A stretch of 37,789 bases of DNA from Actinomycetes bacterium. GTDB taxonomy: Bacteria; Actinomycetota; UBA4738. The notes under the pieces are model-generated. The model was not told the origin of the DNA and made no database searches. It worked only from the letters and a program-made list of their open reading frames with translations. Shown here piece by piece: positions 3,718 to 29,359 of the stretch. Position 1 is the stretch's first letter, and every line of letters begins with the position of its first letter. Made by a program: the position numbers and the translations under genes. The stretch lies in contig JAJYHN010000168.1 in assembly GCA_021784765.1 (NCBI GenBank), positions 1 through 37,789 on the forward strand, written 5' to 3'.

Positions 3718-4251
3718 TCAGATGAACAGCGTGATGGCGTCCTGGGCCTCCATCAGCATGGTGGCCGCTCCGGCCGGCTCGCCGAGGCCGTCGATCAGGT
3801 CCTCGCGCTTCAGGCCCAGCATGTCCATGCTCATCTGGCAGGGGACGAGCTTCACGCCGAGGTCGACGGCCATCTGGAGCATCTCGCTCGGGCTCGCGAT
3901 GTTGTGATCCTTGGCGAGGTGCTTCATCATGGCCGGCCCGGCCCCGGCGAAGTTCATCTTGCCGAGGGCGAGGTGGTCGATGCCGGGGCGGTCCATCATC
4001 GAGACCATCCGCTGCATCCAGTTCTCGCCGGTGATCCGCTTCTCGTCCTTCACCAGCGCGAACAGCCCCCAGAAGGTGAAGAAGAGCGTGGTCTCCATGC
4101 CCATGGCCGCCCCGGCCGTGGCCATGATCATCTGCGGCCACACCTTGTCGAGGTCGCCGCTCCAGGCGATGATCACGAGCTTCTTGTGGGGCGCGTGGTC
4201 GTGCTCGTGCGGCGCGACCTTCGTCTCGACCTCGGCCTCCGACGTCGCCAT
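3718..4251 (-). CDS. DsrE/DsrF/DrsH-like family protein (DsrE2-type)
   Basis: KKLVIIAWSGDLDKVWPQMIMATAGAAMGMETTLFFTFWGL ... KLVPCQMSMDMLGLKREDLIDG with the conserved Cys region; start at MATSEAEVETKV. Confidence 0.82.
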   Translation of the reverse strand: MATSEAEVETKVAPHEHDHAPHKKLVIIAWSGDLDKVWPQMIMATAGAAMGMETTLFFTFWGLFALVKDEKRITGENWMQRMVSMMDRPGIDHLALGKMNFAGAGPAMMKHLAKDHNIASPSEMLQMAVDLGVKLVPCQMSMDMLGLKREDLIDGLGEPAGAATMLMEAQDAITLFI

Positions 4252-4256
4252 CACCC

Positions 4257-4490
4257 TCACCCCTTCTTCTTCACGACGAACCGGTAGACGCCAGCCTCCT
4301 CGCTCTGCTCCACCAGCTCGTTCCCGGTCGACTTCGTCCACGCGTTGAAGTCGGGCACGGCGCCGGGGTCGGTCGCGAGGATCTCCAGCAGGTCACCGGC
4401 CGCCAGCTCCTTGATCGCCTGGGCGGTCTTGACGATCGGCAGCGGGCAGTTCAGCCCCTTGACGTCCAGCGTCTTGGCGACGGCGCTCAT
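4257..4490 (-). CDS. TusA-family sulfurtransferase/sulfur carrier
   Basis: LDVKGLNCPLPIVKTAQAIKELAAGDLLEILATDPGAVPDFNAWTKSTGNEL, with CPxP motif. Confidence 0.88.
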   Translation of the reverse strand: MSAVAKTLDVKGLNCPLPIVKTAQAIKELAAGDLLEILATDPGAVPDFNAWTKSTGNELVEQSEEAGVYRFVVKKKG

Positions 4491-5653
4491 CCGGCCCTCC
4501 TCTTGTCGCCCGGCATCTCGGGGATCCGCCCCTGCGGGAGCGTCACCCAGTAGATCCGGTTGAACATCCACTTTCCGATGTGCCAGAAGGTCGACGGCTT
4601 CGGGGGCGTCGGCGGGTTCTCGTAGTCGAACCGCAGCACCGTCGACTTCCGGTTGCCGGTCTCGAGGAAGCACATCACGCGGCCGCCGTAGTTCGCCTTG
4701 GGCGCGGTGCCCTTGATGAGCGAGGCGATCCGCGAGACGACGACCGGGGCCTCGAAGTGCGCCGTCGAGCCGGACTTGCTGATCGGCAGGTTCGTGGCAT
4801 CCCCGATCGCGAAGACGTTCTCGAACCCCTCCCGCTGCAGCGTCATGCGATCGGTCGGCACCCAGCCGCCCGCGTCCCCGAGCCCGGAGGCCTCGACCAC
4901 CGCCGAGCCGCGGTGTGGGGGCACCAGCACCAGCAGGTCGGACTCGAGCTTCTGCCCCTCCAGCGACGTGACCGTGCCGGAGGAGGGGTCCACGGACTCG
5001 ACGTTGAAGAAGGTCTCGATCTTGACGCCCCGCTGCTCGAGGATCGGCGTCACGAGCTTCGACGCCGACTCGATCGTGAACGCCCGGTTCAGCGGCGAGA
5101 GCAGCGTGATCTCGCTGCGGTCGCGGATCCCGCGCTTGCGCAGGTACTCCTCGACCATGAACGTGAACTCGATCGGCGCCGGCGGGCACTTGTAGGGGAT
5201 GCCCGCGATGCCGATGTGGATCCGGCCGCCGCGGAACTGCCGCAGCGCCTCGCGCAGACGGATGGCGCCCTCGAGCGTGTAGAAGTGGTAGGAGCCCTCG
5301 ACCAGGCCGGGGACCTGCTCGGGGACGACCCGCGAGCCGGTCGCGACGACCAGGTGGTCATAGGGGAGACTCCCCCCCGCCCTCAGGTGGACGATGCCGG
5401 CGTCGGTGTCGACCCGCTCGGCCGCGTCGACGACCAGGTCGACGTCACGGCGCAGCAGCGTCCGCTCGTCACGCGAGAGCCACTGGCCGTTCGCCTGCCC
5501 GAGCGCGACGTACAGGTACCCGGGCTGGTAGACGTGCATGCCGGTCGGGTCGACGATCGTGACCTTCGCGTCGCGACCGAGCTCCTTGGTGAGGAGGTTC
5601 GCCGCGAGGGTGCCGCCGACGCCGCCGCCCAGGATGACGATCCGGGCCGGCAT
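4487..5653 (-). CDS. FAD-dependent oxidoreductase, sulfide:quinone oxidoreductase-like
   Basis: RIVILGGGVGGTLAANLL, YDHLVVATGS, GIPYKCPPAPIEF (Cys156), FAIGDATNLP, MCFLETG (Cys328), C-terminal amphipathic FWHIGKWMFNRIYWVTLP. Confidence 0.85.
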   Translation of the reverse strand: MPARIVILGGGVGGTLAANLLTKELGRDAKVTIVDPTGMHVYQPGYLYVALGQANGQWLSRDERTLLRRDVDLVVDAAERVDTDAGIVHLRAGGSLPYDHLVVATGSRVVPEQVPGLVEGSYHFYTLEGAIRLREALRQFRGGRIHIGIAGIPYKCPPAPIEFTFMVEEYLRKRGIRDRSEITLLSPLNRAFTIESASKLVTPILEQRGVKIETFFNVESVDPSSGTVTSLEGQKLESDLLVLVPPHRGSAVVEASGLGDAGGWVPTDRMTLQREGFENVFAIGDATNLPISKSGSTAHFEAPVVVSRIASLIKGTAPKANYGGRVMCFLETGNRKSTVLRFDYENPPTPPKPSTFWHIGKWMFNRIYWVTLPQGRIPEMPGDKRRAG

Positions 5654-5659
5654 CGTGCC

Positions 5660-5899
5660 TCACCTCACCTTCCGGACGTAGAACTTCGCGTAGTCGGCTT
5701 CCTGCTCGACCGCGACCATCTCCTGCCCGGCCTTCGCGACCCAGGCGGGGATGTCGATCTTCGAGCCCTCGTCGCTCGAGATCACCTCGATGACCTGCCC
5801 GACCTGCCCCTCGCGGATGGCGCCGATCAGCGACATCAGGGGCCCGGGGCACGGCATGCCGCGCGCGTCGATCTCGCGGTCCACCTGCTCAACGCCCAT
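5660..5899 (-). CDS. TusA-family sulfurtransferase/sulfur carrier
   Basis: REIDARGMPCPGPLMSLIGAIREGQVGQVIEVISSDEGSKIDIPAWVAKAGQEM, with CPxP motif. Confidence 0.88.
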   Translation of the reverse strand: MGVEQVDREIDARGMPCPGPLMSLIGAIREGQVGQVIEVISSDEGSKIDIPAWVAKAGQEMVAVEQEADYAKFYVRKVR

Positions 5900-5912: not shown

Positions 5913-6335
5913 CTAGATGAACACGACGGGGCCGTCCGCCTCGAGCATGAAGCTCGCGACCCCCCATACGCCGTCGATCAACGGGTCGAGATCGTCCTTG
6001 GTGATCCCGAACATCTCCATGGAGAGGGCGCACGCGTACAGGTGCACGTCGCCGATCTCCTTGGCCTGGCGGAACGTGTCCGCCCAGTGCTGCGTGCTGC
6101 CCTGCTCGCGCATGAGGCGCATGAGCGAGGCGCCCTCGGGCTCGGCGTCCTTGCTGACGCCGTGATCCTTCGCGATGCGATCCTTCTGGAAGTTCTCGAG
6201 CGCCCAGTACTGCAGGAACAGGTTCACCTTCCGCCCGAGTGCGGCCGCGCCGGCGGTGAGGATCGACGCCGACGACAGCTTGTCGTCGGTCCCCGAGAAC
6301 AGCACCAGGGACAGCGTGCCCTGCGAGTCATCCAT
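5913..6335 (-). CDS. DsrE family protein
   Basis: LSLVLFSGTDDKLSSASILTAGAAALGRKVNLFLQYWAL ... DVHLYACALSMEMFGITKDDL; start at MDDSQGTL. Confidence 0.82.
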   Translation of the reverse strand: MDDSQGTLSLVLFSGTDDKLSSASILTAGAAALGRKVNLFLQYWALENFQKDRIAKDHGVSKDAEPEGASLMRLMREQGSTQHWADTFRQAKEIGDVHLYACALSMEMFGITKDDLDPLIDGVWGVASFMLEADGPVVFI

Positions 6336-6368
6336 GTGTGTCCCCCTCTGCATCCACCTTCACCGGGC

Positions 6369-6434
6369 AGCGTCCCAGGCGGCAATGGCACCCCTCAGGG
6401 TCCGGGGACCCGGCCTCGCAGGGCCGATCGACCT
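6369..6434 (-). promoter_or_regulatory. DosR-like tandem boxes plus -10 for the DsrE/TusA/SQR-like operon
   Basis: Minus strand: AGGTC-GATC-GGCCC (6434-6421) and GGGTC-CCCG-GACCC (6411-6398), centres 23 bp apart; 23 nt spacer; GACGCT (6374-6369) as weak -10; ATG at 6335. Confidence 0.5.
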
Positions 6435-6514
6435 TCCTCGGCAGTTCACAAGCCCATCGGCGTGCGCCGGCGGGCGCTTGAGGCCGCACTCGATCCGACG
6501 CCGCCAGGCGGTCG

Positions 6515-6580
6515 AGGCCGTTCGGCCCCTGTCGGAGGGGACACGGGGCCCATGGCGCTGCCGCGCGGCGCTCATACCGT
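6515..6580 (+). promoter_or_regulatory. DosR-like tandem boxes plus -10 for the CBS-BON/hydrogenase operon
   Basis: AGGCC-GTTC-GGCCC (6515-6528) and GGGAC-ACGG-GGCCC (6538-6551), centres 23 bp apart; 23 nt spacer; TACCGT -10 (6575-6580); ATG at 6610. Confidence 0.55.
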
Positions 6581-6609: not shown

Positions 6610-7293
6610 ATGCGGGTCAAGGACATCATGACCGCCCCGGTGATCACCGTCCGGCCGGACATGCCGATCAAGGAGGCGGCGGCCCTGCTCGTCGAGCGCG
6701 CCATCAGCGCCGTGCCGGTCGTGGACGAGGCCGGCATCCTGATCGGAATCGTCTCCGAGGCCGACTTCGTCCGGCTCGAGACCGAGCCCGACCCCCGCGC
6801 GCACGCGATTCCCGTGTCCCACCGGGACCGCGTGGTGCCGCGCACCGTCCGGGAGATCATGACCCGGGAGGTGATCGCGGCCCCGGAGGACGCGGACGTG
6901 GCAGAGGTCGCGCGCCTGATGCTCGAGCACCACGTCAAGCGCCTCCCGGTCGTCGCCGACGAGCGTGTCATCGGCATCGTGAGCCGCCGCGACATCCTCC
7001 GGATGCTCACCCGCAGCGACGCCGAGATCCGCGCCGAGGTGGAGGAGCTGCTCGACGACGAGATCCTGATGATCGGCGCCCTCCGCGTCGAGGTCACGGG
7101 CGGGCTGGTCACCCTGACCGGGCGAGTGCGGCCGACGGCCCGCCGACTCGCCGAGATCCTGACGCGGAGCGTCCCCGGGGTGCTCGGGGTGCGCTTCGGC
7201 AACGGCGACCAGGGCACGGGCGACCGCCCAGGGAACGACCGGCCGGGAGCCGGGGAGCCCGACGAGATCGAGCCGGAGGGCGTGCCGCGATGA
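6610..7293 (+). CDS. CBS-pair and BON domain protein
   Basis: MRVKDIMTAPVITVRPDMPIKEAAALLVERAISAVPVVDEAG...VREIMTREVIAAPEDADVAEVARLMLEHHVKRLPVV; C-terminal BON-like RVEVTGGLVTLTGRVRPTARRLAEILTRSVPGVLGV; AGGAGG upstream. Confidence 0.88.
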   Translation: MRVKDIMTAPVITVRPDMPIKEAAALLVERAISAVPVVDEAGILIGIVSEADFVRLETEPDPRAHAIPVSHRDRVVPRTVREIMTREVIAAPEDADVAEVARLMLEHHVKRLPVVADERVIGIVSRRDILRMLTRSDAEIRAEVEELLDDEILMIGALRVEVTGGLVTLTGRVRPTARRLAEILTRSVPGVLGVRFGNGDQGTGDRPGNDRPGAGEPDEIEPEGVPR

Positions 7294-8408
7294 GGTTCCT
7301 CGACCGGGAGGGGCTCGGCTCGCTGCTCGCCCGCCTGGTCGCAGAGGGCTACGAGCTGATCGGGCCGACCGTCCGCGACGGCACCATCGTGCTCGACCGG
7401 ATCGAGGCCGTCGATGACCTCCCGGCGGGCGTCGGGGAGGTGGAGGGCCCCGGCACGTACCGCCTCGTCCGTCGGGACGACCGGCGGGTCTTCGGATTCG
7501 CGCACGGGCCCGATGCGGGAAAGCGGTTCCTGTTCCCCTCCAGCGAGGTTCTCGGGACGATCGGGCGGCGAAACGGCCACCTCACCGCACCACCGGCCGA
7601 GGCCGGAGCCGAGGGGCGGCGCGCGTTCGTCGGCCTTCGCCCCTGCGACCTGCACGCCATCGAGGTCCAGGACCGCGTGTTCCGCGGTGGGCCCGAGCCC
7701 GACGCCGCCTACGCCGCTCGCCGGGACGGGGCGTTCGTGATCGGCGTCAACTGCACGGCGCCGGGGGGCACCTGCTTCTGCGACTCGATGGGGACCGGGC
7801 CCGTCTGCACGGTGGGGTTCGACGTCGCCCTGACCGAGCTCGACCACGGCTTCCTGGCGACCGCGGGGACGGCCCGCGGCGGAGACCTCCTCGAGGAGGC
7901 AGGATCGCGCGAGGCGACCCCGGGCGAGGCGGCCGAGGGCCACCGCCTGCTCGCGAACGCCCGGGTCCACATGGGGCGCTCGCTCGACACGTCGGACCTG
8001 CCGGGACTCCTCTACCGGAACCGCCGGCACCCGCGGTGGGCCGACGTCGCCGAGCGCTGCCTCGCATGCGGGAACTGCACGTCCGTCTGCCCCACGTGCT
8101 TCTGCCACGACGTGGTCGACGACGTCGACCTCGCCGGCGAGACGGCGACCCGCGTGCGGGAGTGGGCGAGCTGCTTCTCGGTGGAGTTCTCCCACACGGC
8201 CGGCATGGAGGTTCGAACGAGCCGCGAGGCGCGCTACCGGCAGTGGCTGACCCACAAGTTCGCGTCCTGGATCGACCAGTTCGGCACCTCGGGGTGCGTG
8301 GGCTGCGGGCGGTGCATCACCTGGTGCCCGGTCGGGATCGACGTCACCGAGGAGGTCGCGGCCATCCGCGCCGACGACGGGGCCGTCGCTCTGGAGGTGG
8401 GCGCATGA
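7290..8408 (+). CDS. hydB: Group 3b-type [NiFe] (sulf)hydrogenase beta subunit, 4Fe-4S protein
   Basis: GLRPCDLHAIEVQDRVF; CLACGNCTSVCPTCFC and CVGCGRCITWCPVGIDVTEEV ferredoxin-like clusters; ATGA overlap with the CBS-BON gene. Confidence 0.85.
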   Translation: MRFLDREGLGSLLARLVAEGYELIGPTVRDGTIVLDRIEAVDDLPAGVGEVEGPGTYRLVRRDDRRVFGFAHGPDAGKRFLFPSSEVLGTIGRRNGHLTAPPAEAGAEGRRAFVGLRPCDLHAIEVQDRVFRGGPEPDAAYAARRDGAFVIGVNCTAPGGTCFCDSMGTGPVCTVGFDVALTELDHGFLATAGTARGGDLLEEAGSREATPGEAAEGHRLLANARVHMGRSLDTSDLPGLLYRNRRHPRWADVAERCLACGNCTSVCPTCFCHDVVDDVDLAGETATRVREWASCFSVEFSHTAGMEVRTSREARYRQWLTHKFASWIDQFGTSGCVGCGRCITWCPVGIDVTEEVAAIRADDGAVALEVGA

Positions 8409-9280
8409 ACGTCGTCGCGCCCGACCTCCACCGCGAGCGGGCCGAGGCCGTCCCCATGCGGATCGCCGTCGTCCGCCGCATCGTGCAGGAGACGCCCGAC
8501 ACCGCGACCTACTGGATGAACCTGCGGCGGCGGGCCGATCGGCTTGCCTATTCGTTCGCCCCCGGGCAGTTCAACATGGTCTATGTGTTCGGCGCGGGCG
8601 AGGTGCCGATCTCGATCTCCTCCGACCCGGCGCGCCCAACCTGCCTCGCGCACACGGTGCGGGCGACCGGTCGCGTGACGAACCTGTTCCCGTCCCTGTC
8701 CCTGGGCGACGAGATCGGTGTGCGCGGGCCGTTCGGGCGCCCGTGGCCGATGCGCGAGGCGGCCGGAGGGGACCTCGTGATCGTGGCCGGGGGGCTCGGG
8801 TTCGCCCCCGTGCGGCCCGCCCTGTACGCGGCCATGCGGAACCGGGCGCACTACCGCCGGGTGATCATCATGGTCGGGGCGCGCGGCCCGCAGCACATGC
8901 TGTTCGCGCGACGGCTCGGGACCTGGACCCACACGCTGCGGGCGCGCGGCGTGGAGCCCCACCTCACGGTCGACATCGCCGACGACGCCTGGCCGTACGG
9001 CCACGGCGTGGTGACCACGCTCTTCGACCCGGCCCACCTCGATCCCCGCATGACGACGGCGTTCGTCTGCGGCCCGGAGATCATGATGCGCTTCGCCGTC
9101 CACGAACTCCTGGAGCGTGGCATGGGAACGCACCGCATCTACGTCTCGATGGAGCGGAACATGCAGTGCGCCGCGCGGATGTGCGGGCACTGCCAGCTCG
9201 GACCGGCGTTCGTCTGCGCCGACGGACCGGTCTTCCGCTACGACGAGGTCGCCGAGCTGCTCGAGGAGGAGGAGCTGTGA
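8405..9280 (+). CDS. hydG: Group 3b-type (sulf)hydrogenase gamma subunit, FAD/NAD(P)-binding, ferredoxin reductase-like
   Basis: SFAPGQFNMVYVFGAGEVPISISS; GGLGFAPVRP; CGPEIMMRFAVHELLERG; C-terminal CAARMCGHCQLGPAFVC [2Fe-2S] motif. Confidence 0.87.
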   Translation: MNVVAPDLHRERAEAVPMRIAVVRRIVQETPDTATYWMNLRRRADRLAYSFAPGQFNMVYVFGAGEVPISISSDPARPTCLAHTVRATGRVTNLFPSLSLGDEIGVRGPFGRPWPMREAAGGDLVIVAGGLGFAPVRPALYAAMRNRAHYRRVIIMVGARGPQHMLFARRLGTWTHTLRARGVEPHLTVDIADDAWPYGHGVVTTLFDPAHLDPRMTTAFVCGPEIMMRFAVHELLERGMGTHRIYVSMERNMQCAARMCGHCQLGPAFVCADGPVFRYDEVAELLEEEEL

Positions 9281-10125
9281 GTGCCGTCCAGGCCGACGCG
9301 CGCGCGGACGGGCGTGAGGCCGGAGCGCCGGCGCGGCCGCGGGTCGCGGTCTTCAAGCTCTCGTCCTGCGACGGCTGCCAGCTGCAGCTCCTCGACGCCG
9401 AGGAGGCGCTGCTCGAGCTCGCGGGGGCCGTCGACATCGTCCTCTTTCGCGAGGCGCGGGGCCGGAGCGAGCCGGGCCCCTACGACCTCGCGATCGTCGA
9501 GGGCTCGATCTCGACCCCCCGGCAGCTCGAGGAGATCAAGGAGATCCGGGCGAGCGCCCGGTTCCTGATCGCCGTCGGGGCATGCGCGCTGTCCGGTGGC
9601 ATCCAGGCGCTCCGCAACGCCGTCGAGTACGGCGACACGGTCGCCCGGGTCTACCCGACCCCCGCGTACGTGCGGGCCCTCGCGACCTCGACGCCGGTAT
9701 CCGACCACGTGCGGGTCGACCTCGAGCTTCCCGGGTGTCCCGTCGACCGCGGCCAGCTGCTCGGAGCCCTCGCCGCCCTGCTCGGCGGCCACCTTCCCCG
9801 CCGCTCGACCGCGCCCGTGTGCGCCGAGTGCAAGCGGCGGGGCTACGTGTGCGTGGTCGTGGCGAGGGGCGAGCCGTGCCTCGGCCCGGTCACGAACACC
9901 GGCTGCGGGGCCATCTGCCCCGGGATGGGGCGAGGCTGCTACGGCTGCTTCGGCCCGTCGCAGCCCCCGAACGTCGCCGCGCTGGTCCGCCGCTTCGAGG
10001 AGCTTGGGGACGCGCCCGAGCGGGCGCGCGACCGGTTCCGGCTGATCACGAGCTCCGCGCCGGCGTTCCGCGACGGGCTCGCCGCCTCCGCCGGCGAGCC
10101 CGGACGGACGGAGGTGACACCGTGA
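9277..10125 (+). CDS. hydD: Group 3b-type [NiFe] hydrogenase small (delta) subunit
   Basis: GTG start in a GTGA overlap; VFKLSSCDGCQLQLLD, GACALSGGIQALRN, ELPGCPVDRGQLL, EPCLGPVTNTGCGAICPGMGRGCYGCFGP; no Tat signal. Confidence 0.88.
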   Translation: MSAVQADARADGREAGAPARPRVAVFKLSSCDGCQLQLLDAEEALLELAGAVDIVLFREARGRSEPGPYDLAIVEGSISTPRQLEEIKEIRASARFLIAVGACALSGGIQALRNAVEYGDTVARVYPTPAYVRALATSTPVSDHVRVDLELPGCPVDRGQLLGALAALLGGHLPRRSTAPVCAECKRRGYVCVVVARGEPCLGPVTNTGCGAICPGMGRGCYGCFGPSQPPNVAALVRRFEELGDAPERARDRFRLITSSAPAFRDGLAASAGEPGRTEVTP

Positions 10126-11447
10126 CCCACACGGTCGCCCGCACGCCGAACCGGGTGGTCGAGATCCCCTCGATCGCGCGCGTCGAGGGCGAGGGCGCGT
10201 TGCACCTGAAGCTCTCGGGCTCGCGAATCCTCGACCTGCGTCTGGAGATCTACGAGCCGCCGCGGTTCTTCGAGTCCTTCCTGGTCGGGCGTCGCTACGA
10301 CGAGGTGCCCGACATCGTCCCGCGAATCTGCGGGATCTGTCCGGTCGCCTACCAGATGAGCGCCGTCCACGGCATCGAGCGGCTGTTCGAGACCGACGTG
10401 CCGGCGGGGACCCGAGAGCTCCGCCGCCTGCTGTACTGCGGCGAGTGGATCGAGAGCCACATGCTCCACGTCCACCTGCTGGCCGCGCCCGACTACCTCG
10501 GCTGCGAGAGCGCGATCACGATGGCCGCCACCGAGCGGGAAGCGCTCGAGCGCGGGCTCGCGATCAAGCGTCTCGGGAACGACCTCATGGCGGCGATCGG
10601 CGGGCGCGAGATCCACCCGGTCTCGCCACGGGTCGGCGGCTTCTCGAAGGCCCCCGCGACTCGCGAGCTCCGGTCGTTCCTGCCTCGGCTCGAGGAGGCG
10701 CTCTCCCGGACGGAGGAGGTCGCCGCGTGGGTGGCCGGGTTCGATCCGCCGGCCTTCGCGCGTCCGGCCGAGCTGGTCGGGCTGTGGCATCCGGACGAGT
10801 ACCCGATGAACGAGGGCGCGGTGCGCTCGACGCAGGGGCGCGAGTTCCCGGCCGAGCGGTTCGAGGACGTGGTCGAGGAGCTGCACGTCCCGCACTCGAA
10901 CGCACTGCACGCGCGGTTCCGGGACGGGGGAACGTTCGGCGGCGGGTCCTACGTCGTCGGTCCGCTCGCCCGCGTGAACCTGAACGCCGACACGCTGACG
11001 CCGGTCGCGCGCGCTCTCGCCACGAGGCTCGGCCTCACGGTCCCGCAGGCCGACCCCTTCTGGTCGACGGCGGCCCGCGTCGTCGAGACGGCGCTCGCGG
11101 TCGAGGAGGCGATCCGCCTGATCCGCGACTACGAGCAGCCAGCCCCGCCCGCGGCCGACGTGCGACCGCGGGCCGGACGGGCGACGTGGGTCACCGAGGC
11201 GCCCCGCGGCATCCTGTACCACCGCTACGACCTCGACGACGAGGGGATCGTCCGCGAGGCGCGGATCGTGCCGCCCACCTCCCAGAACCTGCGCCACATG
11301 GAGGACGACCTCCGGGCGTTCCTCCCAAGCGCCCTCGACCGCGACGACGACGAGCTCGGACGGCTTGCGGAGATGATCGTGCGGACCTACGACCCCTGCA
11401 TCTCGTGCGCGACCCACTTCCTCACCCTGGAGGTGCAGCGAACGTGA
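10122..11447 (+). CDS. hydA: Group 3b-type [NiFe] hydrogenase large (alpha) subunit
   Basis: GTG start in a GTGA overlap; L1 motif RICGIC, L2 motif DPCISCATH followed by FLTLEVQRT C-terminal extension; IARVEGEGAL. Confidence 0.92.
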   Translation: MTHTVARTPNRVVEIPSIARVEGEGALHLKLSGSRILDLRLEIYEPPRFFESFLVGRRYDEVPDIVPRICGICPVAYQMSAVHGIERLFETDVPAGTRELRRLLYCGEWIESHMLHVHLLAAPDYLGCESAITMAATEREALERGLAIKRLGNDLMAAIGGREIHPVSPRVGGFSKAPATRELRSFLPRLEEALSRTEEVAAWVAGFDPPAFARPAELVGLWHPDEYPMNEGAVRSTQGREFPAERFEDVVEELHVPHSNALHARFRDGGTFGGGSYVVGPLARVNLNADTLTPVARALATRLGLTVPQADPFWSTAARVVETALAVEEAIRLIRDYEQPAPPAADVRPRAGRATWVTEAPRGILYHRYDLDDEGIVREARIVPPTSQNLRHMEDDLRAFLPSALDRDDDELGRLAEMIVRTYDPCISCATHFLTLEVQRT

Positions 11448-16239: not shown

Positions 16240-16306
16240 GGACCACCCGGTCCCGGGGCCCGAGGGACTCCCGTCCGTGGTCACCTCCGCGACCCCGAAC
16301 TACCGT
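16240..16306 (+). promoter_or_regulatory. DosR-like box(es) plus -10 for carbamate kinase
   Basis: GGACC-ACCC-GGTCC (16240-16253) and GGGAC-TCCC-GTCCG (16264-16277), centres 24 bp apart; 23 nt spacer; TACCGT (16301-16306), identical to the -10 of the CBS-BON/hydrogenase operon. Confidence 0.5.
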
Positions 16307-19773: not shown

Positions 19774-20484
19774 CTACGGCCTGACCCCGAGCCCGTGGCC
19801 CGTGGCAACCCAGCCGACGCGCTGCGCCGCCGTGGGCCCCGTGTCGTCGATCGCGTAGGTCAGGCGGCTCTCCACGGCGACGACCCCGTCGACCCCCCGC
19901 ACCAGCCCGGCGACGACCGGCAGCATGCTCCGCCGCTCGACCTGCCCCTCGAGCGTGACCACGCCGTCCCGGACATCGGCCCGCACGGTGCCCGGCTCGA
20001 CCACCAGCACCCGCCCGAGGACCTCGTCCCGGACCTCCGCCAGGATGTCGGCGTCGTCTCGGAGGAAGACCCGCAGCAGGTCGCACCGGCTGACGATGCC
20101 GACGAGGCCCCCCGCCGCGTCGACGACCGGCAGGCGCTTGACGCCCCGCTCGTGCATCAGCCTGGCCGCCTCGGCCACTCCGGCCTCCGGGGCGATCACC
20201 GTCACGGGACTGGACATCACGTGCGAGGCCACGGTGCCCGCGGCCTTCGCCCGCGCCGCCCGGCGCTCCCGGCCCTCGAAGATCCTCGGCCCCCCGTCCC
20301 GCCCGAACCCCTCCTTCGTCAGAAGGTCGGCCTCGGTGACGATCCCGACGACGTGACGCTGCTCGTCGACCACCGGCAGCGCGCTCACGCGGTACTCGTG
20401 CAGCAGCTCCACGATCCTCTTGAACGGGGCGGCCTTGTCCACGACGACCACCGTCTTGGTCATCACATCCCTCACCGCACGCAT
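19774..20484 (-). CDS. CBS-pair and BON domain protein (second copy)
   Basis: MRAVRDVMTKTVVVVDKAAPFKRIVELLHEYRVSALPVVDEQ...VMSSPVTVIAPEAGVAEAARLMHERGVKRLPVVDAAGG; BON-like VRADVRDGVVTLEGQVERRSMLPVVAGLVRGVDGVVAVE; AGGAGG 6 nt upstream. Confidence 0.87.
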   Translation of the reverse strand: MRAVRDVMTKTVVVVDKAAPFKRIVELLHEYRVSALPVVDEQRHVVGIVTEADLLTKEGFGRDGGPRIFEGRERRAARAKAAGTVASHVMSSPVTVIAPEAGVAEAARLMHERGVKRLPVVDAAGGLVGIVSRCDLLRVFLRDDADILAEVRDEVLGRVLVVEPGTVRADVRDGVVTLEGQVERRSMLPVVAGLVRGVDGVVAVESRLTYAIDDTGPTAAQRVGWVATGHGLGVRP

Positions 20485-20534
20485 CCGCATCCTCCTCGCG
20501 AGGCCCCTTCTCGTCGCACGCTCTCCTCGCATCG

Positions 20535-20600
20535 ACGCTACCGCCGCGGGCCAGGCCGGCTGAGGGTCGACCGACCCCTCCACGCCGGCCCGGACGACCC
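20535..20600 (-). promoter_or_regulatory. DosR-like tandem boxes plus -10 for CBS-BON 2
   Basis: Minus strand: GGGTC-GTCC-GGGCC (20600-20587) and perfectly palindromic-armed GGGTC-GGTC-GACCC (20577-20564), centres 23 bp apart; 23 nt spacer; TAGCGT (20540-20535). Confidence 0.58.
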
Positions 20601-20604
20601 CGCA

Positions 20605-20670
20605 GGGGCGCCAGGCCCCCGGCGTGGATGCCCTTCGTCCCGTGGCGGCCCTCCCGCCACGACGGACCAT
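20605..20670 (+). promoter_or_regulatory. DosR-like tandem boxes plus weak -10 for the P-type ATPase
   Basis: GGGGC-GCCA-GGCCC (20605-20618) and ATGCC-CTTC-GTCCC (20628-20641), centres 23 bp apart; 23 nt spacer; GACCAT (20665-20670). Confidence 0.4.
20642..20660. repeat. Short inverted repeat in the CBS-BON 2/ATPase intergenic region
   Basis: GTGGCGG-CCCTC-CCGCCAC, 7-bp arms. Confidence 0.5.
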
Positions 20671-20756
20671 GAACGCATGCCCCTCACCGAACGACGCGAT
20701 GCCGCCCCGCCCCCGGGCCCGTGCCTGCACGCCGCCACGGAGGAGGACGGGTCCCC

Positions 20757-23563: not shown

Positions 23564-23651
23564 GGGCCGGACGTCCCGTCTCGACCGGGACGTACGGGCC
23601 TTGGTCCGGGGCCTGCTGCCACCCGTCGAGGGTTGGGCACGGACGTACGAT
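23564..23651 (+). promoter_or_regulatory. Three tandem DosR-like boxes plus -10 for the GNAT/ADP-forming ACS gene
   Basis: GGGCC-GGAC-GTCCC (23564-23577), GGGAC-GTAC-GGGCC (23587-23600), GGGCC-TGCT-GCCAC (23609-23622), centre spacings 23 and 22 bp; 23 nt spacer; TACGAT (23646-23651). Confidence 0.58.
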
Positions 23652-26927: not shown

Positions 26928-26964
26928 CGGCCGAAAGTCCCGTTCGACACGGGACGGGCGGCCC
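26928..26964. promoter_or_regulatory. Two DosR-like boxes in the SRPBCC/sensor-kinase divergent region
   Basis: Plus strand CGGCC-GAAA-GTCCC (26928-26941; reverse GGGACTTTCGGCCG) and GGGAC-GGGC-GGCCC (26951-26964), centres 23 bp apart. Confidence 0.55.
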
Positions 26965-26978
26965 GATCCGACAGGATG

Positions 26979-26984
26979 TACGCT
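26979..26984 (+). promoter_or_regulatory. Putative -10 (TACGCT) for the GAF histidine kinase, possibly leaderless
   Basis: TANNNT hexamer ending 9 nt before the ATG at 26994. Confidence 0.35.
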
Positions 26985-26993
26985 GCCATTGGC

Positions 26994-28616
26994 ATGGCCG
27001 CAGAGGGTGATCGGAAGGACCTCCTGATCGAGGCGGGGCTGGTCCTGTCCTCGGAGCTCTCGCTGCCGGTGGTGCTTCAGCGCATCGTCGACCTGGCCAC
27101 CCGCCTGACCGGAGCCCGATACGGGGCGCTCGGGGTGACCGGACCGGGCGGCCGGATCGTGGAGTTCGTCACGGCTGGGGTCTCGGAGCGGGAGCGGGCC
27201 GCCATCGGCCACCCGCCGCAGGGACACGGGATCCTCGGCCTGCTGATCCGTGACCCACGTCCTCTGCGACTGGCCCGGATCTCGGACGACCCGCGCGCGA
27301 TCGGGTTCCCGCCGGGGCACCCGGTCATGCACTCGTTCCTCGGCGCGCCGCTGATGGCGCACGGTCGGGTCTTCGGCAACGTCTACCTCGCCGACAAGGA
27401 GGGCGGCGCCGAGTTCAGCGACGAGGACGAGCGCACCCTGTCCGTGCTCGCGTCCCAGGCCGGGATCGCCATCGCGAACGCGCGCCTGTACGAGGACACG
27501 CAGCGGCGCCAGCGGTGGCTCGAGGCCGTTCGCGAGGTCACCGGCTCGATCCTCGCCGGGGCCGAGTCGACCGAGGTGCTCCGCCTGGTGGCGAGGCGGG
27601 CCCGGGAGCTCGTCGGTGGGGACGTGTCCACGATCGTCGCCGAGCACGAGGGGCAGACGGACCCGCTCCGCGTGCTCGCCTCCGACGGGCACCGGGCCGA
27701 CGAGATGCTCGGGGCCGAGGTCCCGCTCCGGGGCTCCCTCTCCGGCGAGGTCGTCCGCAACGGGGTCGCCGTGGCGGTCGCCGACGCCGCAGAGGACCCT
27801 CATGGGTCCCAGCCGCTGGTGTGGCTCCGCGACATCGGGCCGGCCGTGCTCCTGCCACTCGTCGTGCGCGGGCGCCCGTTCGGGACCCTCGCCGTCGGAA
27901 GGCTCCGCGGACGCCCGCCGATCGGTGAGGAGGACCGCCGGCTGGTCGAGACCTTCGCCGAGCAGGCGTCGCTCGCCATCGAGTTCGGACGCGCGCAGGA
28001 GGACCTGAAGCGCCTGGCGCTGATGGAGGACCGCGAGCGCATCGCGAAGGAGCTGCACGACGGCGTGATCCAGTCGCTGTTCGCCGTCGGGATGGGGCTG
28101 CAGGGCACCGCGATCCTCGCCTCGGACGACGAGCTGGCGCAGCGGATCGAGGGCGCGGTCGAGGACCTCGACCGCGTCATCCGCGATCTGCGCAACTACA
28201 TCTTCGGCCTGCGTCCCGGGATCCTCGCCGACCGGCAGCTCGACGAGGCCCTGCAGCACCTCGCCCGCGAGTTCGAGGAGAAGACCGGCGTGGTGACGGT
28301 CGTCGACATCGACCGTGAGGTCGCGGCCGAGCTCTCCGGCAACGCCGCCGACCTCGTGCAGCTGACGCGCGAGGCGCTCTCGAACGTCGGGCGTCACGCG
28401 GCCGCCTCGACCGTGCGGGTGAGCCTGTCGCGGGCGGAGGGCGGCGCGCTGCTCTGCGTGGACGACGACGGGCAGGGGTTCGATCTCGCCGAGGTCGACG
28501 GGCGGGGCAGCGGCCTGCGGAACATCCGGGAGCGGACCTCGGCGCTGGGCGGCGAGGTCCGGATCGCCTCGATACCCTCCGAGGGCACCACCGTCGAGTT
28601 CCGCATCCCGCTCTGA
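26994..28616 (+). CDS. DevS/DosT-like sensor histidine kinase (two GAF domains, HisKA_3, HATPase)
   Basis: GAF-A with IGFPPGHPVMHSFLGAPLMAHGRVFGNVYLADKEGG; second GAF; MEDRERIAKELHDGVIQSLFAVGMGLQ H-box; VDDDGQGFDLAEVDGRGSGLRNIRERTSALGGEV. Confidence 0.88.
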   Translation: MAAEGDRKDLLIEAGLVLSSELSLPVVLQRIVDLATRLTGARYGALGVTGPGGRIVEFVTAGVSERERAAIGHPPQGHGILGLLIRDPRPLRLARISDDPRAIGFPPGHPVMHSFLGAPLMAHGRVFGNVYLADKEGGAEFSDEDERTLSVLASQAGIAIANARLYEDTQRRQRWLEAVREVTGSILAGAESTEVLRLVARRARELVGGDVSTIVAEHEGQTDPLRVLASDGHRADEMLGAEVPLRGSLSGEVVRNGVAVAVADAAEDPHGSQPLVWLRDIGPAVLLPLVVRGRPFGTLAVGRLRGRPPIGEEDRRLVETFAEQASLAIEFGRAQEDLKRLALMEDRERIAKELHDGVIQSLFAVGMGLQGTAILASDDELAQRIEGAVEDLDRVIRDLRNYIFGLRPGILADRQLDEALQHLAREFEEKTGVVTVVDIDREVAAELSGNAADLVQLTREALSNVGRHAAASTVRVSLSRAEGGALLCVDDDGQGFDLAEVDGRGSGLRNIRERTSALGGEVRIASIPSEGTTVEFRIPL

Positions 28617-28702
28617 CGCGCCACCGGCCCCGCACACGGCGTTCCGCAGGATCCCCTCGGGGGAGTTGAGGGGCGGCGCTCGCCGTGCGAGCATGGGGGC
28701 CG

Positions 28703-29359
28703 ATGGGAACGCCGCTCCGCGTGATGCTGGTCGATGACCACGAGGTCGTTCGCAAGGGCGTGAAGGCCCTGCTCGATGCGGCCGACGACATCGTGGTGGC
28801 CGGCGAGGCGGGATCGGTCAAGGAGGCCATCGAGGAGGCCGAGCGGACCCGCCCCGACGTCGTCGTGATGGACGTCCGGCTGATCGACGGCAGCGGCATC
28901 GAGGCCACCCGCGAGATCCGCGCTCGCCGCCCCAAGATCCAGGTCCTGATGCTGACCTCGTTCGCCGACGACGAGGCGCTGTTCGCCTCGATCATGGCCG
29001 GCGCCTCCGGCTACGTGCTGAAGCAGATCAAGGCCGGCGAGCTCATCCGCGCGATCCGGGCGGTCGGCGAGGGCAAGAGCCTGCTCGACCCCGACGTCAC
29101 CAAGACCGTCCTCGAGCGGCTGCGCCGCGGCAAGCACCTCATCAAGGACGAGAAGCTCGCTCGGCTGTCGCCGCAGGAGGAGCGCATCCTCTCGCTGGTC
29201 GCCTCCGGCAAGACCAACAAGGAGATCGGCGAGGAGCTCCACCTCGCCGAGAAGACCGTGAAGAACTACGTCTCGAGCATCCTCTCCAAGCTCGAGGTCG
29301 CCCGTCGGGCCGAGGCCGCCGCCTACCTCGCCCGTCACACCACCACCCCCGGCGCCTGA
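28703..29359 (+). CDS. DevR/DosR-like NarL/LuxR-family response regulator
   Basis: LRVMLVDDHEVVRKGVKALLDAADDIVVAGEAGSVKEAIEEAERTRPDVVVMDVRLIDGSGIEATREIR...LSPQEERILSLVASGKTNKEIGEELHLAEKTVKNYVSSILSKLEVARRAEAAAYL. Confidence 0.92.
   Translation: MGTPLRVMLVDDHEVVRKGVKALLDAADDIVVAGEAGSVKEAIEEAERTRPDVVVMDVRLIDGSGIEATREIRARRPKIQVLMLTSFADDEALFASIMAGASGYVLKQIKAGELIRAIRAVGEGKSLLDPDVTKTVLERLRRGKHLIKDEKLARLSPQEERILSLVASGKTNKEIGEELHLAEKTVKNYVSSILSKLEVARRAEAAAYLARHTTTPGA

Follow-up and report, generated by a model that had tools for sequence, protein, structure and literature searches.

Two back-to-back DevR class-II promoters, both served by the single regulator encoded at 28685–29359, very probably occupy the 274-bp interval between a sulfur-carrier operon and a divergent hydrogenase operon in the DNA analysed here, a 37,789-nt stretch of an Actinomycetes bacterium (contig JAJYHN010000168.1, hereafter the window). 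This reading draws on a pair of palindromic DevR-type boxes in each direction, on the conservation of their geometry in genomes of the same order, and on a DevS/DevR system encoded in the same window.

Architecture of the divergent interval

The interval and the two operons that flank it comprise the following features:

3718–4341, minus strand: dsrE2-like gene, start uncertain (Pfam DrsE_2, 1.6e-46)
4257–4490, minus strand: tusA-like gene 2 (Pfam TusA, 9.3e-25)
4487–5653, minus strand: sulfide:quinone oxidoreductase (SQR)-like flavoprotein (Pfam Pyr_redox_2/FCSD_central)
5660–5899, minus strand: tusA-like gene 1 (Pfam TusA, 9.4e-22), conserved in relatives
5913–6335, minus strand: dsrE-like gene, first of the sulfur-carrier operon (Pfam DrsE_2/DsrE)
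6369–6374, minus strand: GACGCT, the -10-like hexamer for dsrE, separated from the proximal box by 23 nt
6398–6411, minus strand: gene-proximal DevR-type box of the dsrE promoter, GGGTCCGGGGACCC, a near-perfect palindrome
6421–6434, minus strand: distal DevR-type box of the dsrE promoter (box 2), GGGCCGATCGACCT
6515–6528, plus strand: distal DevR-type box of the CBS-BON/hydrogenase promoter (box 3), AGGCCGTTCGGCCC
6538–6551, plus strand: gene-proximal DevR-type box of the CBS-BON/hydrogenase promoter, GGGACACGGGGCCC
6575–6580, plus strand: TACCGT, the -10-like hexamer for CBS-BON and the hydrogenase, separated from the proximal box by 23 nt
6610–7293, plus strand: CBS-BON protein 1, heading the hydrogenase transcript (Pfam CBS, BON)
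7290–8408, plus strand: hyhB, 4Fe-4S beta subunit of a group-3b-type [NiFe]-hydrogenase/sulfhydrogenase
8405–9280, plus strand: hyhG, FAD/NAD(P)-binding gamma subunit
9277–11447, plus strand: small and large [NiFe]-hydrogenase subunits, exact starts unsettled (Pfam Oxidored_q6, NiFeSe_Hases)

Both tusA-like genes are missing from the list of long open reading frames (at least 80 aa). The flavoprotein matches the curated NCBIfam type III SQR model (selenoprotein subtype) at 4e-112, and its 375 bits fall below the cut-off of 525, so that it is classed as SQR-like only. Among 398 genomes of the phylum, this dsrE is limited to the order and one further family. On the plus strand, the stop of CBS-BON 1 overlaps the hyhB start (7290), and the four subunits of a group 3b [NiFe]-hydrogenase are present (Fe-S beta, FAD/NAD(P) gamma, small and large); we take the subgroup to be 3b from sulfhydrogenase-type matches and general knowledge, without a tree.

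An earlier note, made from the sequence alone, had placed two boxes in each direction, with centres exactly 23 bp apart and 23 nt separating each pair from a -10-like hexamer. All four boxes are present at those coordinates, the centres lie at 6404.5/6427.5 and 6521.5/6544.5, and the gap is exact on both sides when measured from the gene-proximal box. Every box matches 7–8 of the 8 core positions of the palindrome GGGNC...GNCCC, characteristic of the DevR/OsdR consensus, and the arrangement of 23-bp pairs with a -10 at 23 nt reproduces the closely packed boxes, the proximal one at -35, of DevR/DosR-type promoters. The -10 hexamers are weak, GACGCT being poor, and a good -35 hexamer is lacking on both sides of the interval, in keeping with dependence on an activator. 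A G-rich RBS makes 6335 a better dsrE start than the longest-ORF start at 6353, and CBS-BON starts at ATG 6610; from these two starts, leaders of about 25 nt are predicted on both sides, which fits the promoter placement.

Conservation of the module in relatives

The spacing value of 23 was first taken from this window, so that the independent test lies in the relatives. The full module, defined as box, 23 bp, box, 23 nt, xANNNT, was scanned for before every dsrE and hyhB orthologue. The dsrE orthologues of the order share 62–69% identity, and analysis of their 160-bp upstream stretches in 12 relatives revealed a 23-bp box pair in 10 (0.06 expected); over the other pair distances from 14 to 45 bp, 24 bp occurred in three promoters and all others in at most two. 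The full module precedes dsrE in 10 of 12 relatives, plus the window itself, and hyhB in all seven other genomes of the order, counts which are not independent events since relatives share ancestry. Among the dsrE modules, nine were reached by none of 300 shuffles and that of L007 by 3 of 300, which is weak; each hyhB module was reached by at most 1 of 300. The exact dsrE module is missing in two relatives, one with none (L008) and one whose best pair is at 24 bp (L011). In a hand-picked, not unbiased, sample of 21 gene-directed promoters, 18 had xANNNT exactly 23 nt past the proximal box and at most one had it at any of 49 other offsets.

No module was detected in any of the 12 sqr promoters that lie within the sulfur operon, in any of four devR promoters or, at the 23-nt offset, in any of 69 hyhB promoters of other phyla; this last result indicates that the module does not accompany this hydrogenase in general. 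Outside the order, among actinobacteria or the same phylum, 8 of 30 hyhB promoters have a single box with a -10 at 23 nt, which suggests that DevR control of this hydrogenase may be wider than the order. Single DevR-type boxes with TAGCGT or TAGCCT exactly 23 nt off occur in the hyhB promoters L087, L154, L160, L163, L172 and L184, all from outside the order.

In one relative, G008, dsrE and hyhB are adjacent and divergent, and both have a module of their own; no CBS-BON gene takes part in this layout, and the CBS-BON1 orthologue lies elsewhere, behind a 16/16 pair with TAGCTT. Since all three genes keep theirs, the modules travel with the genes. Conservation of both pairs in orthologous regions, proposed earlier as a check, is thus borne out before dsrE and hyhB and, for both together, in G008. 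The earlier note had also seen the divergent region as the link between the operons: G008 shares this layout, but the link is unneeded, as the operons lie apart in most relatives, each with its own module. That the dsrE and hydrogenase operons belong to one regulon, rather than being linked at one region, is well supported by these sequence comparisons.

The same separation favors a reading in which one regulator serves both promoters and these are nevertheless not co-induced, owing to extra factors or box affinity, the shared region being an accident of gene order. In its favor, too, the Hyh hydrogenase of M. smegmatis was not CO-induced while other dos genes were (PMC8125079). Against it, the two modules of the interval are equally strong (18.0 of 19 each) and G008 keeps the divergent layout. 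We consider this reading unlikely, though with an appreciable chance of being right; it is a variant of the two-promoter, one-regulator explanation and compatible with it.

A probable regulator

About 20 kb downstream of the interval, the window encodes a two-component system:

26976–28616, plus strand: DevS/DosS-type sensor kinase (GAF-GAF-HisKA_3-HATPase)
28685–29359, plus strand: DevR/DosR orthologue, a NarL-family response regulator (NarL-type receiver and GerE domain)

The best PDB match of the regulator is M. tuberculosis DevR (3c3w, E 2.6e-55), with which it shares an identical recognition helix, LAEKTVKNYVS. The phospho-Asp and the T82 equivalent are kept, so that the receiver, the GerE domain, the phospho-Asp and the recognition helix of a DevR/DosR response regulator are all in place. 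The five best PDB matches of the kinase are GAF domains of the DevS/DosT type (~1e-40), and the HP-M-FLG haem-pocket stretch is conserved in its GAF-A, identifying it by sequence as a DevS/DosS.

The DevR sequences of 17 other genomes in the order are 78–86% identical to it, and with one 55% match counted the gene is present in 19 of 27. The orthologue occurs in all 12 dsrE-bearing and all eight hyhB-bearing genomes, and the eight genomes of the order without DevR have neither gene. Fisher tests of this co-occurrence gave p = 0.003 for dsrE and 0.06 for hyhB, values uncorrected for kinship and for MAG incompleteness. The regulator can thus likely be named as the DevR/DosR orthologue at 28685–29359, and the earlier proposal of one regulator for both operons gains support from the shared box type and geometry, their order-wide conservation and the presence of DevS/DevR in the window.

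The boxes might instead be bound by another NarL-family response regulator, or by several of which DevR is only one. NarL-family regulators can share similar half sites, and the genome contains nine GerE-domain matches; however, the DevR recognition helix is found in the window regulator only, among independent motifs the DevR/OsdR consensus matches best, and the presence of DevR tracks dsrE and hyhB in the order. Taken together, these observations make a different regulator improbable and leave DevR as the preferred candidate.

No module was found upstream of the window devR. A 23-bp box pair lies just before devS (26928–26964), with no -10 at 23 nt. Several relatives (L046–L051) have CBS-BON2 and devS in divergent orientation, and box pairs lie in the region that separates the two genes. 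At L043 (G004:C51), CBS-BON1, an OsmC-like protein, a universal-stress-type protein and devS share one neighborhood, which, read by eye, would be a further dormancy-island layout.

Chance and signal in the window and the genome

Single boxes prove little, because the loose box pattern RGGNCNNNNGNCCY is near background in this GC-rich DNA, with 19 matches in the window against 12 expected. The full module behaves differently: with xANNNT required, five modules of at least 17 of 19 were found in the 37.8-kb window, whereas 100 shuffles averaged 0.02 per window. The dsrE and CBS-BON/hydrogenase promoters account for two of the five. As an outside motif we used the S. coelicolor OsdR consensus AGGGCCGATCGGCCCT, which was published without this window (PMC5069765). 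Its top match in the window falls on box 2 (6420–6435) at 14/16, with 0.2 expected, followed by one match at 13/16 and five at 12/16, including box 3. With the M. tuberculosis 20-mer consensus TTSGGGACTWWAGTCCCSAA, window matches were not above background and none fell on the boxes, a failure attributed to its AT-rich core, unsuited to this genome.

Genome-wide, 23-bp pairs with at most one mismatch numbered 128 against 152 with a reversed-pattern control, and this lack of excess indicates that boxes alone are not specific in a GC-rich genome. Seven exact 23-bp pairs occur in the genome outside the window, only some of them intergenic, and their -10s in the gene direction were not convincing. 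At L191 and L194 (C98 and C169 of the same genome), exact 23-bp pairs lie near 2-oxoacid:ferredoxin oxidoreductase and PLP-dependent decarboxylase genes. Chance palindromes in GC-rich intergenic DNA would account for the near-background single boxes and the missing genome-wide excess of pairs, but this explanation has a vanishingly small probability given the module count in the window, and we regard it as refuted by the conservation of spacing and -10 position in relatives.

Other modules and boxes in the window

A second divergent region (20476–20720) contains two DevR-type modules, the first of which is listed here by its box pair:

20564–20600, minus strand: box pair at 23-bp spacing, followed by TAGCGT, in front of CBS-BON 2

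This pair (20564/20587) points to CBS-BON2, and the pair 20605/20628 with GACCAT points to a P-type ATPase on the plus strand, whose start is uncertain. A weaker module with TACCGT (16241–16306) lies before an amino-acid kinase gene (16369). Another 23-bp pair (23564–23600) precedes a GNAT/acyl-CoA synthetase (ADP-forming) gene; toward the gene, a -10 is missing at 23 nt, and TACGAT lies about 45 nt downstream. No module was found in NAPRT promoters, including that of the window, though NAPRT adjoins hyhB in several relatives.

Proposed mechanism

From the sequence features we infer DevR binding, phosphorylation, activation, a signal and co-expression of both operons. First, the DevS-type kinase (26976–28616) would sense a redox or gas signal, low O2, NO, CO or sulfide, at its haem-GAF domain and would phosphorylate DevR. 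Secondly, cooperative binding would place DevR dimers next to each other on the two palindromic boxes in each pair. Thirdly, with the proximal box next to or overlapping the -35 position, DevR could act as a class-II activator and recruit RNA polymerase carrying the main sigma factor; as this box ends where a -35 element would begin, DevR should contact the polymerase there. Transcription in the minus direction would then yield dsrE-tusA-sqr-tusA-dsrE2, for sulfide oxidation and sulfane-sulfur carriers, and in the plus direction CBS-BON with the group-3b-type, NADP(H)-linked hydrogenase.

Comparison with known systems

In M. tuberculosis, DevR binds cooperatively at adjacent, closely packed sites, the proximal one overlapping -35 (PMC3029386). 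Its promoters, including the divergent tgs1-Rv3131 (PMC3029386), share with the interval the paired boxes, the proximal box at -35, divergent targets and a DevS/DevR-type system, whereas the boxes of the window are GC-richer and one target is a sulfur-carrier/SQR operon. The two tgs1-Rv3131 promoters share one P+S pair; a single pair serving both operons in that style is ruled out in the window, where each direction has its own.

Rv2626c of M. tuberculosis is a CBS-domain protein. The DosR regulon of that species lists ctpF and Rv2626c (PMC4082495) as well as pncB2 (PMC11203133), and thus has target kinds in common with the window, namely a CBS-domain protein and a cation ATPase (ctpF; PMC4082495), the likeness to Rv2626c, ctpF and pncB2 being one of protein kind.

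The Hyh-type [NiFe]-hydrogenase of M. smegmatis belongs to the dos regulon and is DosR-controlled (PMC8125079); unlike it, the hydrogenase transcript of the window is headed by a CBS-BON gene. As far as checked, that report (PMC8125079), on a different bacterial group, does not describe a DsrE-TusA-SQR operon in the regulon. OsdR, the DevR orthologue of S. coelicolor (PMC5069765), has the same box consensus in a host that is also GC-rich, and the word hydrogenase is absent from the main text on its regulon.

M. tuberculosis DosS, which regulates DosR, binds H2S at its ferric haem, which raises Dos gene expression (PMC9062744). The window DevS is a putative haem-GAF kinase of the same family; the H2S is host-made for M. 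tuberculosis (PMC9062744), whereas the regulon predicted here includes the bacterium's own sulfide-handling genes. Because DosS binds H2S, a sulfide-removal operon in the regulon is attractive. We put forward, tentatively and as somewhat less probable than its negation, that DevS/DevR forms a sulfide/redox circuit in this order, in which the haem would sense H2S or low O2 and DevR would switch on SQR-TusA-DsrE, for sulfide removal, together with the NADP(H)-linked hydrogenase.

Biological significance

DosR control of Hyh in M. smegmatis and DevR-type paired boxes are already known. A DevR-controlled DsrE-TusA-SQR operon appears to be new, and so, as far as checked, does the putative order-wide promoter grammar; no relevant paper linking DosR with TusA, DsrE or SQR was found in a search covering few subscription journals, which makes this absence weak evidence.

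DosR/DevR is the regulator that takes tuberculosis bacteria into low-oxygen dormancy. The present analysis would extend its regulon beyond mycobacteria and Streptomyces to an uncultured order that includes the MAG Bacterium HR12, with a promoter grammar (box, 23 bp, box, 23 nt, xANNNT) that is rigid and easy to search. Bacterium HR12 corresponds to relative G026, whose contig sequence is identical, and is listed by NCBI under unclassified Bacteria; judged by the DevS/DevR system and by the relatives, the phylum is probably Actinomycetota. It would add an independent case of a DosR-controlled Hyh-type hydrogenase and bring a sulfide/sulfane-sulfur operon into the regulon. Together with H2S binding by M. 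tuberculosis DosS, this leads to the testable idea that sulfide may be an old, native signal of DosS-type sensors. If the sulfide/redox circuit is true, the dormancy regulator known from tuberculosis would, in this order, be wired to sulfur metabolism.
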